Shown here: one piece after another, positions 9,412 through 53,302 of the stretch
How the letters are laid out: each line of letters begins with the position of its first letter
Numbering within the stretch: position 1 is the first letter of the stretch
DNA from: Massilia sp. CF038
GTDB taxonomy: Bacteria > Pseudomonadota > Gammaproteobacteria > Burkholderiales > Burkholderiaceae_D
DNA length: 64,000 nucleotides
Reading direction: 5' to 3'
Assembly (NCBI RefSeq): GCF_900129765.1
Contig: NZ_FQWU01000002.1
Span: 372,001-436,000, forward strand
Translations under genes and position numbers: made by a program
Notes under the pieces: generated by a model
The model's database searches: none
Seen by the model: the letters and a program-made list of their open reading frames with translations, nothing else
Told to the model about the DNA's origin: nothing

Positions 9412-9957
9412 ATGTTTACAAATCCCGAACAATTTGCATCCGCCACCAAGACACTTTTTGAACTTCAAATGATGACCTTCAGCGCGTTGACCAGCAAAGC
9501 GGTTGATGGCGTAGAGCAAGTGGTCGCGTTGAATATGGCGACGGCAAAAAATTCGGTCGAAGGATCGATGGCGGCCGGTAAGGAAATCAGCAAGGCGAAA
9601 GATCCCAAAGCCGCCATGGCGATTGCCGCGGCGCAGGCGCAACCGGGCATGGCAGCGACCGTGGAATACGGCGAGCAGCTCAAGGTCATCATCGACGACA
9701 TCCACACCGAATTTACCAACGCGGCAGATGCGCACATCGCCGAAGCCAAAAGTACCTTGTCGGCGCTGATCTACGACGTGACCAAAAACGTCAAGCCGGG
9801 TTCGGAAAACGCGGTGGAAATTATTAAGACAGCGATCGACAATGCCTTCCAGGGCTACGAACAAGTCACGCAGGCCACGCGCCAGGCGGTGCAAGTTGTG
9901 GAGGCCCAGATCGCCAAGGCAACCGAGCAGGTGGTCGCCAGCAAAAAAGCGCGGTAA
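9412..9957 (+). CDS. Phasin family protein
   Basis: A 181-residue helical, Ala/Lys/Gln-rich protein of the phasin family, which coats polyhydroxyalkanoate granules. Family features are the start MFTNPEQFASATK, the segment FELQMMTFSALTSKAVDGVEQ near residue 20, and long amphipathic helices ending in KKAR. The start has a good ribosome-binding site (CAGGAGACGCC ATG); in-frame upstream extensions are not credible. No PHA synthase is nearby, which is common because phasin genes are often scattered. Confidence 0.9.
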   Translation: MFTNPEQFASATKTLFELQMMTFSALTSKAVDGVEQVVALNMATAKNSVEGSMAAGKEISKAKDPKAAMAIAAAQAQPGMAATVEYGEQLKVIIDDIHTEFTNAADAHIAEAKSTLSALIYDVTKNVKPGSENAVEIIKTAIDNAFQGYEQVTQATRQAVQVVEAQIAKATEQVVASKKAR

Positions 9958-9966
9958 GACACGGGT

Positions 9967-43800: not shown

Positions 43801-45714
43801 CTAGCGCAATTCTTCCAGCAGTTTGAGCTTGTCATCGAAGCGCCAGACACGGCGGATCTCGATCACGTCGTAGCGCTGCGCAATTTGCGACGGGAACGGG
43901 GAATAGCGGGCGTTGACCCGCACGATGCGGCGAACCGCCTCGTCCATGTCGGCGCGGCCGCTGGAGATGATGATGGTGACATCTTCCACGGTGCCATCGC
44001 TGCGCACGGCAACACTGACCAGCGGATCGGTCTTGTCTTCATCGGCCCAGGCGCGCGGATAGTTGATGCCACCGTTGCGTTCGATTTTCTGGCGCCAGCT
44101 TTCCACATACATGCGCAACGGCAGATCGCGTTCGTTGGCACCAACGGCGACGCGGCGCCCCTCGCGCAGTGGCGGCGGCGTGCGCGGCGGATCCCCGCGC
44201 AACACGTCGAGTCCTTTGACCAGGTCGCGCGCGCGGTTGGCCGCATCGCTGCCGAGCATATTGCGTGGAATTTGCGGCCCGCCAGTGCCGCCGGCACCGG
44301 GGCCTTTGCCTTCGGTGCCGCTACCGCTGGACGGGGTGCCCGCAGGTGCGGTGCCGCGTGGCTGTCCTGCCTGCTGGGCCGCCTGCTGAGCGGCCTTTTG
44401 TGCAGCCTGGTCAGCGCGCTGCTGGTCCGCTTTCTGCTGATCGGCACGCTGCTGCGCGGCCCTTTCCTGGGCGGCCCTTTCCTGAGCAGCCTTTTCCTGG
44501 GCGGCCCTTTCCTGGGCGGCCCTTTCCTGCTCGATCTTCTGTTGCTCGGCTTTCTGTTGCTCGGCTTTCTGCTGCTCGGCTTTCTGCTGCTCGATCCGCT
44601 GCTGCTCGAGTTTTTGTTGCTCCAGCTTTTGCTGATCGAGTTTTTGCTGATCGAGTTTTTGCTGATCGAGCTTCTGGCGCTCCAGTTTTTGCTGTTCGAG
44701 CTTCTGCTGTTCCAGTTTCTGCTGTTCTTGTTTCTGCTGCTCGAGCTTCTGTTGCTGCAACTTCTGCTGCTCAAGTTGTTGCAGCTCGACTTTCTGTTGC
44801 TCTATCCTTTTTTCGTCGGCCTTTTGCTGATCTGCCTTCGTCTGTTGGAGTCGCTGCTGTTCAAGCTGTTGCTGTGCCAACTTTTCCTGGTCCAGGCGCT
44901 GCTGCGCAAGACGCGCCTGTTCCAGTTTCTGCTGCTCGGCCTTTGCCTGCGCGATCTGTTGTGCAGCGACCAGGTCGGACTGCTTGCGCTCGTCGTCCAA
45001 TTTGGCTTGTTCGGCCAGCGCCAGCTGTTTTTGCAACCTCTCCTGCTCGGCCGCTTTGCGCGCTGCCTCCTGCTCCGCCAGCTTGGCCTCCTCAGCCAGT
45101 TTGCGCGCTTCCGCCTCCTCGGCGGCCTTGATCAAGCCTGCCTTGGCAGCAGCCGCTTCGGCGGCAGCGCTGGTCTCGGCATCGCCGTCGTCTTCGCCAT
45201 GACGTGATTTCGCCAGATCAAGCGTCTTTTCTTCGGCCTCTTCCGGCCGTTCCAGCGGCACAGTAAAGTCGTTGCGCACATTGTCCTGGGTAATGACGCG
45301 CGCAGGTTCGACCACGGTATCGCGTGCAGGCACCGGCGGGCTGATGCGGCGGGCACGGCGCGGTTTGTCTTTCCTGACGGCTGGGCGGGCTTTGGGCGGC
45401 GGCGCAGGGGCAGGCGCCGCTTCCACCACGGGATTGACCAGGCGCATGCCAGTCGTTGCCAATGGCTTCGATGGCAATGGTGCTGGCGTATCGGGCACAG
45501 CGGCGGGAACGGGCTCCGGCACCGGGGCCGCAGGCGGCGCGGGTGCGATGCGCACGGTCAGCGGCGGCGCGGCGCCCTGCAAGCCCAGATTCGTGACCCC
45601 GAACTGCAACAGCAACAGCAAAGCGTGCAGCAGCAGCGACACCAGCAAGCCCCAGGCGAGGCGCCGGTCGGCCTGACTGGCGGATGACGCGCGCTGAACT
45701 GCTGGTGATGCCAT
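43801..45714 (-). CDS. TonB-family protein with long pentapeptide-repeat coil
   Basis: A 637-residue protein with one N-terminal helix (WGLLVSLLLHALLLLLQFGV, residues about 20-39), a Pro-rich part, and a very long Glu/Gln/Lys-rich coil (about 170-440). A C-terminal TonB-like domain follows (INYPRAW, LVSVAVRSDGTVEDVTII, VNARYSPFP, IEIRRVWRF). The coil contains runs of LEQQK, LDQQK, AEQQK and AQERA units encoded by 15-base repeats. It spans the periplasm like TonB or TolA and may energise an outer-membrane partner. It lies 160 bases from the Wza-like gene; a link to polysaccharide export is only inferred. Confidence 0.75.
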   Translation of the reverse strand: MASPAVQRASSASQADRRLAWGLLVSLLLHALLLLLQFGVTNLGLQGAAPPLTVRIAPAPPAAPVPEPVPAAVPDTPAPLPSKPLATTGMRLVNPVVEAAPAPAPPPKARPAVRKDKPRRARRISPPVPARDTVVEPARVITQDNVRNDFTVPLERPEEAEEKTLDLAKSRHGEDDGDAETSAAAEAAAAKAGLIKAAEEAEARKLAEEAKLAEQEAARKAAEQERLQKQLALAEQAKLDDERKQSDLVAAQQIAQAKAEQQKLEQARLAQQRLDQEKLAQQQLEQQRLQQTKADQQKADEKRIEQQKVELQQLEQQKLQQQKLEQQKQEQQKLEQQKLEQQKLERQKLDQQKLDQQKLDQQKLEQQKLEQQRIEQQKAEQQKAEQQKAEQQKIEQERAAQERAAQEKAAQERAAQERAAQQRADQQKADQQRADQAAQKAAQQAAQQAGQPRGTAPAGTPSSGSGTEGKGPGAGGTGGPQIPRNMLGSDAANRARDLVKGLDVLRGDPPRTPPPLREGRRVAVGANERDLPLRMYVESWRQKIERNGGINYPRAWADEDKTDPLVSVAVRSDGTVEDVTIIISSGRADMDEAVRRIVRVNARYSPFPSQIAQRYDVIEIRRVWRFDDKLKLLEELR

Positions 45715-50039: not shown

Positions 50040-51680
50040 TTACGGCAAGGTCTTCAGGGTCGCCTTGACGGGAGCCGAGAAGTTGTAGCCGTCATGCTTG
50101 TCCCAGTTGATCGACCAGGTCATTACGCCGCGGAACTCCGGATAGGCTTTCACCGGTTTGATCGTGCCGCAATTGAGCAATTGTGTCAGACACTTGAGCG
50201 CATTATTCACGTTTGTCGTGGTGGTGAAGCCTGAGCCAGCCGAGCTTGGGCCAGACGGCACACCAAAGCCGACCTGATCCGGACGCAAACCTGCAAAGTT
50301 GTTGCCGCCGTAGGTAAAGCCCTCGATCAGCATCTTGGCCGTGGCCACCAGCTGATCGGTCGAACCAGCGGTGAGCGCACCGCTCGAGTACGGCGTGTAG
50401 ATATTGCCGTTGTTGTAGTACTGCGGGTGCAAGATCGTCAGCTCGTTACGCAAGGCATTGATGATCGGAATGTACGCGCCCCAGATCGAGCCATAACTGG
50501 TGAACCCGCCTTCCACGTAGACCCATTCTGGCGCCATGGACAGATAGAAGCTGGCGCCAACCTTGGCTTTCAAATTCTTGACTGCAATCGGCAAGTAGGT
50601 CTGGATCGCCGCGCCCTGCGAGACGCCGTTTTCGAGATCGAGGTCGATCCCGTCAAAGCCGTACTTGGTGATGATCGCGTACAAGGAATTGGTGAAATTG
50701 GTCGCCTCGGCAGTCGACCCGACAGAGACCGAGCCATTCTGCCCGCCCAGCGAGAGAATCACCTTCTTGCCGGCCGCTTTCTTGGCCTTGATATCGGCAA
50801 TGAACTGGGCTTCACTGCCCGCGTTCGGATCAAGTGTAAAGCTGACGTTACCGTTGCCCGCATTGTCGGCAAACGACACGACGATGACGTCCCAGTCATT
50901 GCTGACCTGTCCAATCGGGTAAGTATTACCAGCCGGATTGGTGAAGTTATGCCAGTAGCCAACCAGCGCGTGCTTGGCCAGACCTGGGGTTGGCGTTGGG
51001 GTTGGGGTTGGCGTCGGCGTCGGGGTCGGCGTTGGGGTCGGGGTCGGCGTTGGCGTTGGCGTTGGCGTTGGCGTTGGTGTAGGCGTCGTGCAATTGCCGC
51101 CGGCACCCCACAAGGTTGGCGAGTCCTTCGGATTCCAATTCGTGCCCACGTACGCGGTATGGGTAACAAGGGCCGTGTACGACACGCCCAGATAGCTGAC
51201 AACTTTGCCAGCCGTGTAGGTAACGCCTTCCGCCCACACGGCGCAGGATGGCGTTGGTGTTGGTGTTGGCGTTGGTGTTGGTGTTGGCGTCGGTGTTGGT
51301 GTTGGTGTTGGTGTTGGTGTCGGGGTCGGCGTTGGCGTTGGCGTTGGCGTCGGGGTTGGGGTCGGTGTTGGCGTCGGGGTCGCGCCGCACGAGGTGCCTA
51401 CAGTCCAAGGCTTCCCACTACCTGCTGCGCCGCTATTGGTCGCAGGATTGTCGCCCTGGGTCCAGTAGGCGGCAGTGTAGTTCACGCCATTGTAGCTAAC
51501 GGTATTGCCGCCAGTGTAGACGGCGCTGCTGCTCCACGCGGCATAGCATACCGTTGTCTCGGCAAGCAATTTAGTTTGTTGATTCGATTGCGACGATTCG
51601 CCGCCGCAAGCCGCCAGTGTCCCGCCCACCAGGCCACAGATGAGGCTATTGATGATAGTCCTGTTCAATTTTGACTCCAT
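50040..51680 (-). CDS. GH18 chitinase lipoprotein with two chitin-binding modules
   Basis: A 546-residue enzyme that hydrolyses chitin beta-1,4 bonds. The signal ends in LAACGG (lipobox, Cys25), suggesting attachment to the outer membrane. Order: CBM5/12-like module (about 40-99, with [19 protein letters not shown] and YWTQGDNP), a Pro-Thr linker, a second module (about 146-198), a second Pro-Thr linker, then GH18 (about 235-546). The GH18 signature [10 protein letters not shown] at residues 341-350 carries catalytic E350. The linkers are encoded by six-base tandem repeats. The intergenic region upstream is AT-rich, so the gene may be part of an acquired segment. Confidence 0.92.
50994..51086. 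repeat. Hexanucleotide tandem repeat, linker 2 of the chitinase
   Basis: About 15 six-base units of GGCGTT and variants (GGGGTT, GGCGTC, GGGGTC), encoding Pro-Thr pairs of the second linker. The units vary only at the third codon positions, which preserves the dipeptide. Confidence 0.8.
51251..51385. repeat. Hexanucleotide tandem repeat, linker 1 of the chitinase
   Basis: About 22 six-base units of GGTGTT/GGCGTT type encoding Pro-Thr pairs of the first linker. It is longer than the second tract and differs in unit composition. Confidence 0.8.
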
Positions 51681-52035
51681 TTTTTAAATGTTATATGACC
51701 GCCAGCAGCGGATGGTTCTACGACCGGTTTACGCGCGAAGCACGATGCAATGTTTCATAGAAAATAAGGTCGCAATACCAATATAACACCAATATGCATA
51801 CATCGCATACCAAATTAGATCAGAGCAATACCAAAATTGCGGACAACAGCCGTTTGAAGAATCGCGCTTGGGCTGCGTCACTCTTGATATGCGGAAGTCC
51901 GGGCGAAACGTTCTCGAAAAAAATTGTGCCGACGCATAAGGCTCTTGATGGCCAGCGCTATTGTTACCTCACCTCTCCGAGAAGAGAGGAAATTCGCGGG
52001 AGGACGATTTTCTCCCACTCATCAAGGAGGATTGT
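51681..52035. other. AT-rich intergenic region before the peptide gene
   Basis: These 355 bases hold no credible gene. They are clearly poorer in GC than the surrounding sequence. Three similar motifs occur at 51772 (GCAATACCAAT), 51805 (GCATACCAAAT) and 51825 (GCAATACCAAA). A small hairpin lies at 51972-51989. The leader ends in AAGGAGG before the peptide start. I found no clear promoter boxes. Confidence 0.5.
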
Positions 52036-52212
52036 ATGCAAGAGCTAAATTTAGATGAGATTGATCAGGTCAGCGGCGCCCGGCGCGGTGCAGGATCGGC
52101 TGTCGCTGCAACACTAGGGTTGATGGCGTTTGCTGCAGCAAGTCCGGTCGTGATCGGGGTCGGATGTGCGGCAATTGTCGGACATTTTGTACTGGAATAT
52201 TTGAATCAATAA
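52036..52212 (+). CDS. Double-glycine-type leader peptide, bacteriocin-like
   Basis: A 58-residue peptide behind a perfect AAGGAGG (five bases upstream). The first 15 residues, MQELNLDEIDQVSGA, match the leader of double-glycine-type class II bacteriocin and microcin precursors (M-x-E-L-x(3)-E-I-x-x-V-S-G-G/A), with SGA at the expected cleavage site. The remaining 43 residues are rich in Gly and Ala and hydrophobic (LGLMAFAAASPVVIGVGC, AAIVGHFVLEYL), with one Cys. Codon use is unlike the neighbours (CTA, TTA). No peptidase-ABC transporter is adjacent; instead a rhomboid protease gene follows 70 bases later. Confidence 0.65.
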   Translation: MQELNLDEIDQVSGARRGAGSAVAATLGLMAFAAASPVVIGVGCAAIVGHFVLEYLNQ

Positions 52213-52233
52213 CGACGATTGAAGACATTCTCT

Positions 52234-52261
52234 GGCCCGGCCGGTAGTAATACACCGGGCC
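52234..52261 (+). terminator. Hairpin between peptide and rhomboid genes
   Basis: The arms GGCCCGG (52234-52240) and CCGGGCC (52255-52261) form a stable seven-pair stem with a 14-base loop. It is followed by CCCTTTC rather than a T-run, so it is more likely an attenuator or RNA-stability element than a full terminator. It would favour the peptide over the protease. Confidence 0.45.
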
Positions 52262-52282
52262 CCCTTTCACAAGGAGGCCAAA

Positions 52283-53302
52283 ATGAATTGGCGATCGACA
52301 TGCCGCTTCCCAATAACCAAGGTCGGCGAATGGCAAGTCAGCAAAACGGGCGCTGCCCAGCCTTCAGCATTGGGTCTTGCGGCAGTCCAAGAAGCAATCG
52401 CCAAGTGGCACCCTCTCTCATCGGTGTTAATTTCATCGCCCCACTCCACTCAACTGCTTCCCCCACTTTGCGTCGAAGAAATCAGCGCACAAGCCCACAC
52501 GAAATTTTTATTCCGCAGTCGACTGAGCATTCAGTTTCTTTTACTCTGCGCATCGATATGTGCTCTGGCAGGGCAAGCGAATGATGCATCAGATGGATGG
52601 CAATTCGCGGCCTTACTGATCGGACTGTCCGCATTTTTGATGTCCGACTACGCCACAGTTTTACGCAAGATCGATGCAACGAAAGAGCGAGCACTATTCG
52701 CCAATTGGGTAAGAACAACATCCCGACCCGATCTTATATTTTGGGGATGCACCATGCTGGGAGCCGGCGCCACTCAGTTTGGGTGTGAATCGTGGCTCGG
52801 CGGCGCAGCACCCTACCTGCATCAATTTGGAACCACGTTCCGGGGTTTGGAACAAGGCGAATATTGGCGCCTGTTGACCGGCCCATTTATTCATCATGAC
52901 CTTGTTCACTGGGCCAGCAATAGCTGTCTCACCGTCCTCGTCGGAATCATTTCGGCGAAGATTTCGCGTCCCGTTTCCGCCCTCACTTTCCTCACTGGAT
53001 CAGCCGCAGGCGCCATCACAACCTGGCTAGTTGGAGATCCACTATTCACAAGTTACGTGGGCGTATCAGCCGGCACACTGGCAATGCTCGGTTTCTGCGC
53101 CGGCACCGCATGGCGCCATCCCGAGCTGTTTCCCAAAAGTTTTGCTTTCACACTTGTCTCATTTGGCGTCATGAACGTATTCGTCTCGTGGATTTATAGT
53201 CAGGACGCTGCAAACGAAGCACATGTAATAGGCATCGTCATTGGCCTACTTGCCGGATACCTCACCAGACCAAACAGAAAATTTTCAATCGAACAGCAAT
53301 AG
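52283..53302 (+). CDS. Rhomboid-family intramembrane serine protease
   Basis: A 339-residue protein with about eight membrane helices. The rhomboid core is in the C-terminal half: GEYWRLLTGPFIHHDLVHWASN (residues 192-213), the catalytic Ser in YVGVSAGTLAM (S262), and the catalytic His in EAHVIGIVIGLLAG (H314). The N-terminal 80 residues are soluble and of unknown type. The ATG at 52283 has AAGGAGG. GC is lower than in the flanks, which suggests transfer. The peptide gene at 52036 shares this strand, so the protease may process, export or confer immunity to it; this is inference. Confidence 0.82.
   Translation: MNWRSTCRFPITKVGEWQVSKTGAAQPSALGLAAVQEAIAKWHPLSSVLISSPHSTQLLPPLCVEEISAQAHTKFLFRSRLSIQFLLLCASICALAGQANDASDGWQFAALLIGLSAFLMSDYATVLRKIDATKERALFANWVRTTSRPDLIFWGCTMLGAGATQFGCESWLGGAAPYLHQFGTTFRGLEQGEYWRLLTGPFIHHDLVHWASNSCLTVLVGIISAKISRPVSALTFLTGSAAGAITTWLVGDPLFTSYVGVSAGTLAMLGFCAGTAWRHPELFPKSFAFTLVSFGVMNVFVSWIYSQDAANEAHVIGIVIGLLAGYLTRPNRKFSIEQQ

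Follow-up and report, generated by a model that had tools for sequence, protein, structure and literature searches.

What does an intramembrane protease do directly behind a gene for a short peptide with a bacteriocin-type leader? This question is raised by two neighbouring genes in the 64,000-nucleotide stretch of DNA analysed here (the window), for which an earlier note had proposed that a rhomboid may mature the peptide, export it or give immunity to it. The features concerned are as follows.

52024..52030, plus strand: ribosome-binding site AAGGAGG of the peptide gene, from the sequence
52036..52212, plus strand: gene of the 58-aa precursor peptide, stop included, from the list of open reading frames (ORFs), with homologues at six other loci
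52036..52080, plus strand: double-glycine-type leader MQELNLDEIDQVSGA, last residues GA, from the sequence and peptide comparison
52081..52209, plus strand: predicted 43-aa hydrophobic core with a single long membrane-type stretch, from hydropathy and an inferred cleavage site
52234..52261, plus strand: intergenic inverted repeat GGCCCGG...CCGGGCC, from the sequence
52271..52277, plus strand: ribosome-binding site AAGGAGG of the rhomboid gene, from the sequence
52283..53302, plus strand: 339-aa rhomboid-family intramembrane serine protease with intact Ser-His motifs
52283..52483, plus strand: soluble N-terminal domain of about 67 residues, from an AlphaFold2 model and family comparison
52724..53278, plus strand: six-helix rhomboid core, residues 148-332, from the model and comparison
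53066..53068, plus strand: codon of the catalytic Ser262 (GxSxG; GVSAG), invariant in all eight aligned members
53222..53224, plus strand: codon of the catalytic His314, invariant in all eight aligned members

The peptide and its rhomboid neighbour

The earlier note had described a 58-aa peptide with this leader, a spacing of 70 bases between the two genes and an AAGGAGG site before each of them, and the sequence agrees on all three points, the gap running from the end of the peptide gene at 52212 to the rhomboid start at 52283. A GA ending is accepted as a double-glycine site in the account given in PMC9746304, and the window peptide is a short precursor whose leader, ending in GG or GA, is of the double-glycine type by which class II microcins are recognised. 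The 43-residue core is hydrophobic, with small, Gly and Pro residues, and its hydropathy reaches a maximum of 2.14 over 19 residues. Against the Microcin V family (PF17508) the peptide scored 20 bits (E 0.001), below the cut-off of 27 bits, and three of the seven peptides of this kind matched that family at E 0.1 or better. When the leader motif was scanned for together with a start codon and a ribosome-binding site, 60 dinucleotide shuffles of the window gave a mean of 0.1 matches and a maximum of 1; the real window gave two, namely the peptide and one apparently spurious ORF on the minus strand. The decisive evidence for a real peptide is conservation, since the peptide beside the homologous rhomboid of Duganella alba is 49% identical to it over 57 residues (E 4e-17).

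The second gene encodes a protein that matched the Rhomboid domain PF01694 with 56.2 bits against a curated cut-off of 22.6; all eight aligned family members matched this domain, and for the window protein Pfam returned one weak YtxH match besides. Ser262 within GVSAG and His314, both pointed out in the earlier note, are present and, like the HxxxN motif (H209, N213), invariant in 8/8 aligned members, suggesting that catalysis by the rhomboid probably matters. In the AlphaFold2 model (mean pLDDT 82.8) the eight helices of the earlier note are recovered if helix 207-250 is counted as two, and the proposed soluble N-terminus is present too, at about 67 residues and not 80; such a domain is common to most of the family.

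Among named rhomboid types, rhombosortase (TIGR03902) was the best NCBIfam match and was matched by 8/8 family members at E 0.01 or better, but the window protein scored 47.3 bits, below the cut-off of 84; the leader of the peptide, moreover, is N-terminal and of C39 type, and inspection by eye showed no GlyGly-CTERM-like tag at the C-terminus of the peptide. The GlpG model (TIGR04239) was likewise missed, with 32.9 bits against 250; unlike GlpG of E. coli and H. influenzae, the window rhomboid has two extra N-terminal helices before the core and is linked to a peptide gene.

Both genes lie in a region of lower GC content (52.9% at 52001-53000) than the preceding and the following kilobase (56.6% and 56.5%), as the earlier note had remarked. 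The inverted repeat between them is possibly a partial terminator or a processing site; the window gap folded no better than shuffled sequences (z -0.72), and four of the five other peptide-rhomboid gaps that were folded gave z values of -2.6 or lower.

Pairing and distribution

Single-sequence searches yielded little. With the window rhomboid, no relative was found in the genome contigs collection and weak rhomboids appeared in three records only of the plasmid collection; among 100 relatives, the same query matched 8 genomes, with one full-length foreign match, and the window peptide found nothing convincing (best foreign match E 0.002). The family was opened up by alignments of two and then four rows. 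Two rhomboids used as a query alignment against 392 genomes of the taxonomic family (threshold 1e-10) matched 11, four of them at full length (the window's own, G034, G233 and G365), and in G233 (Duganella alba, locus L072) and G365 (Massilia sp. ST3, L066) a double-glycine peptide stood immediately upstream of the rhomboid. A scan of an 84,980-species collection with four rhomboids, made through a single short residue pattern and hence missing family members that lack it, returned 13 loci. Nine of these (L066-L074), including three from the 392-genome search, belong to the same family, and L075-L078 are different rhomboids. The rhomboid of L074 has a shortened N-terminus, that of L071 is interrupted by one stop in its frame, and L069 has a fragmented rhomboid and a broken peptide frame. 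L069 (7403-8675) comes from a gammaproteobacterial MAG, and its two genes look as if they were decaying jointly.

A search of genomes for the same two-gene pair, as advised in the earlier note, was carried out on the ten family loci (the window and L066-L074), which were picked by their rhomboid; up to 700 bases upstream were searched with a leave-one-out peptide profile. An intact peptide was found directly upstream, at E 7e-6 or better, in 7/10 (the window, L066, L070, L071, L072, L073 and L074), or in 6/9 when the window, as the source of the finding, is set aside, whereas none of 19 other rhomboids had one in the same test (best E 1.6). L069 retains a broken remnant (E 0.032). Rhomboid homologues without any such peptide, named beforehand as a ground for giving up the idea, do exist, in that L067 and L068 have no peptide within 700 bases upstream; at L068, different double-glycine peptides lie further away, at about 0.9-1.1 kb upstream of the rhomboid. 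A branch supported 99/98 separates the eight intact family members from the 19 others in a tree built from the rhomboid cores. Peptide and rhomboid divergence were uncorrelated in six pairs, L071 with its interrupted rhomboid being left aside (rho -0.07; 374 of 720 permutations as high). The peptide-rhomboid gene pair is real and is found in several groups of proteobacteria.

Used by itself at a limit of E 0.01, the peptide profile matched 20 genomes out of 294 in the taxonomic family, strongly only in the window and D. alba. The remaining matches had E values of 8e-5 or weaker, many over the leader only, and among the few weaker ones inspected, L097 and L103 are other double-glycine peptides close to HlyD-like genes. 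On contigs G329:C76, G271:C17 and G295:C1, which belong to relatives, several short double-glycine leaders occur in tandem, and the profile match covers the leader alone or little beyond it.

The rhomboid family is rare and patchy. A full-length match was found in 1/399 genomes of the order sample, the window's own (any match at 1e-12 in 5), and a match in 1/369 of the class sample (1e-15), again the window's own genome only; the counts were 1/62 for the genus of Massilia ST3 and 1/74 for Duganella, the family, order, class and genus samples overlapping. None of 16 same-genus genomes had a rhomboid match at 1e-10. A same-genus genome, G006, keeps the chitinase-like and acyltransferase flanks and has between them, on the other strand and in about equal space (L127 3100-4700, G006:C1), a different, frame-broken gene that is hydrolase-like by eye, indicating that the peptide-rhomboid site is variable; this fits an accessory cassette. 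The chitinase-like protein of the window (50040-51680, minus strand; GH18 and CBM5/12) has long (PT)n linkers, and the window also encodes a 637-aa protein with long QQKLEQQKL repeats (43801-45714, minus strand), which presumably resembles TolA-like proteins.

Exporter genes and operon layout

According to the accounts in PMC9746304 and PMC10233263, class II microcins need a double-glycine precursor, a C39-peptidase ABC exporter, a membrane fusion protein and TolC, and their immunity protein is typically encoded adjacent to the precursor. At four of the ten family loci, the pair has genes for an HlyD protein and a C39-peptidase ABC exporter as neighbours, in the order HlyD, C39-ABC, peptide, rhomboid at L070, L072 and L073, and HlyD, peptide, rhomboid, C39-ABC at L074. 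The first order is that of Moraxella mcbABCI, whose fourth gene, after HlyD, C39-ABC and peptide, is described as a demonstrated immunity factor (PMC2761928); at the three loci the fourth place is held by the rhomboid. In a list of same-strand ORFs of at least 30 aa with a ribosome-binding site, no further non-overlapping ORF lies between peptide and rhomboid at the four exporter-bearing loci, and at L070, L072 and L073 there is likewise none from the last transporter gene to the peptide. Past the rhomboid, no gene-like same-strand ORF was found at L072 in the stretch examined. At L073, a hydrophobic 108-aa ORF with a ribosome-binding site (9638-9964, plus strand) starts 588 bases past the Halieaceae rhomboid and could be another immunity candidate, and at L070 a 214-aa same-strand ORF lies 0.9 kb past it; neither recurs. 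A divergent ORF beside the Duganella operon (L064 10330-11304, plus strand) begins with a further leader of the double-glycine type (ELTAAELQEVSGGKPW) and continues with a hydrophilic stretch.

No HlyD or C39-ABC match was found at L066 and L071 in the stretches examined; the contig of L067 is 5.3 kb long and that of L068, with HlyD and no C39, 4.5 kb. That a C39 transporter is lacking, as the earlier note stated, holds for the 64-kb window but not for the genome, whose four C39-domain matches all lie outside it. One belongs to an HlyD and C39-ABC pair encoded on a different contig (G000:C2, near 463 kb) that is 62% (ABC) and 55% (HlyD) identical to the Duganella exporter; its C39 domain has candidate Cys/His/Asp residues by eye, and motif scans found no double-glycine peptide beside the pair. 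The C39-ABC exporter and membrane fusion protein of a class II microcin are thus present in the window's genome, in trans, and on the simplest reading they would serve the window peptide. Given the exporter beside the pair in four loci and its homologue in this genome, trimming and export of the peptide are most likely the work of C39.

A second C39-domain ABC transporter (G000:C10:144000-160000; L048 5885-9659, minus strand) adjoins a radical-SAM-like protein (CxxxCxxC, CNFRCTYC), and by eye this region resembles a modified-peptide cluster.

The likeness to class II microcins such as MccV (cvaABC-cvi) and the Moraxella system lies in the double-glycine leader, in the exporter and HlyD genes beside the pair in four relatives and in the one further gene that adjoins the peptide in the immunity position. 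The differences are that this gene encodes an eight-helix rhomboid of about 340 aa where those systems have a small immunity protein of 51-216 aa, and that the exporter of the window is in trans.

Candidate roles of the rhomboid

Since C39 already accounts for leader removal, the rhomboid would be free for another task. The only gene adjacent to the peptide is the rhomboid gene, and in the compact operons, with no other non-overlapping ORF beside the peptide, it alone occupies the position that the immunity gene takes in class II microcin operons, and immunity is the role we predict for it. This operon place, the trimming of the leader by C39, the invariant catalytic residues and a likely substrate encoded next door favour immunity by cutting. 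The rare and patchy occurrence of the family and the variable site in G006 also speak for a microcin-like unit. We therefore lean, by a little, towards the pair being a class II microcin-like unit whose rhomboid is an immunity protease that cuts the peptide in the producer's inner membrane. Judged from sequence, the chances seem about even that the rhomboid is the dedicated immunity protein of a microcin-type peptide, acting by intramembrane serine proteolysis, a form of bacteriocin immunity that Gram-negative bacteria would have acquired independently of the CPBP metalloproteases. Thus, among the roles offered by the earlier note, immunity is preferred, and maturation of the leader and export would fall to C39.

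In this mechanism, the C39-peptidase ABC exporter would recognise the leader of the precursor and cut after Gly-Ala, and together with its HlyD partner, here encoded on another contig, it would secrete the 43-residue hydrophobic core. The mature peptide would act on the inner membrane of related cells, and the rhomboid, whose active site should face the periplasmic leaflet as in GlpG, would confer self-immunity by cutting peptide that enters the inner membrane of its producer. The hydrophobic peptide is a likely rhomboid substrate. A rhomboid without a peptide, as at L067, is what would be expected of an orphan immunity gene; the lack of an adjacent peptide at L067 and L068 also counts against immunity, as do the uncorrelated divergence of the six pairs, the hydrophobic ORF downstream at L073 as an alternative candidate and an exporter that in the window is available only in trans.

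Intramembrane proteases of bacteriocin loci offer a partial precedent. The primary paper on CPBP/Abi immunity proteases is reportedly Kjos 2010. CPBP/Abi (CAAX-type) proteases have reported immunity roles in Gram-positive class II bacteriocin loci (PMC4517551, PMC9298176) and share with the window protein their place within such a locus, but they are metalloproteases with an EExxxR motif (PMC9298176), unrelated to a serine protease with a rhomboid core; that motif is absent from the window rhomboid, where the sole EE reads EEISAQ, and no Abi-type Pfam domain was found in it. Caseicin class IIa operons likewise contain a rhomboid gene, but they are Gram-positive and, as described in PMC12634818, have a separate immunity gene alongside it, which counts against immunity as the role of the window rhomboid. 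So does the account of PMC10233263, in which the known microcin immunity proteins measure 51-216 aa and are believed to act by contact with the microcin or by blocking it, not by cleavage.

A different task for the same active site would be maturation, in which the peptide, once exported or inserted into the membrane, is cut again to free the active form, C39 having removed the leader. Rhomboid substrates often have small residues and Pro/Gly, a character that the peptide cores would share, and the invariant catalytic residues suit this reading as well. Type I export through C39-ABC and HlyD is a single step across both membranes, which would leave an inner-membrane protease little chance to act, and maturation alone would leave the compact operons with no immunity gene beside the peptide. 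SilX, a CAAX protease of an analogous bacteriocin locus, is required for production, probably for the signal peptide, and not for immunity (PMC9298176), which speaks for maturation and against immunity; on balance we regard maturation as unlikely.

It is also quite improbable, slightly more so, that the peptide serves in signalling or self-lysis and is not toxic to other cells, with the rhomboid controlling how much of it the membrane contains. In Neisseria, bacteriocin-like GG peptides are described as acting in autolysis, with antimicrobial activity undetectable (PMC11798529), and no activity is known for the window peptide; the patchy distribution, the variable site in a same-genus genome and the microcin-like operons, however, suggest competition. 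An ordinary housekeeping protease that follows a small ORF by chance is strongly disfavoured and very improbable: as the sole Rhomboid match in the genome (E 0.001) the protein might cover general duties, but it belongs to a family that is paired with the peptide unlike other rhomboids, and the 16 same-genus genomes searched gave no match at 1e-10.

Immunity by proteolysis is the reading we favour. The earlier note knew of no peptide system with a rhomboid in such a role. Among the papers listed in searches of open-licence literature, no title or abstract opening describes a peptide-rhomboid pair of this kind, and passages of PMC7939560 and PMC8538875 contribute nothing about a rhomboid acting in this way. 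The microcin-like unit is of a known kind; its conserved rhomboid partner is unexpected. The cinful pipeline would pass over the 339-aa rhomboid, since, as PMC9746304 describes it, only proteins of 30-250 aa are taken as immunity candidates. If the rhomboid does give immunity, it would represent a new immunity mechanism for Gram-negative bacteriocins. To our knowledge, the natural partners of bacterial rhomboids have been established in few cases; here the gene of a candidate substrate of 43 residues lies 70 bases from that of the protease, which makes the question of the rhomboid's partner directly testable.
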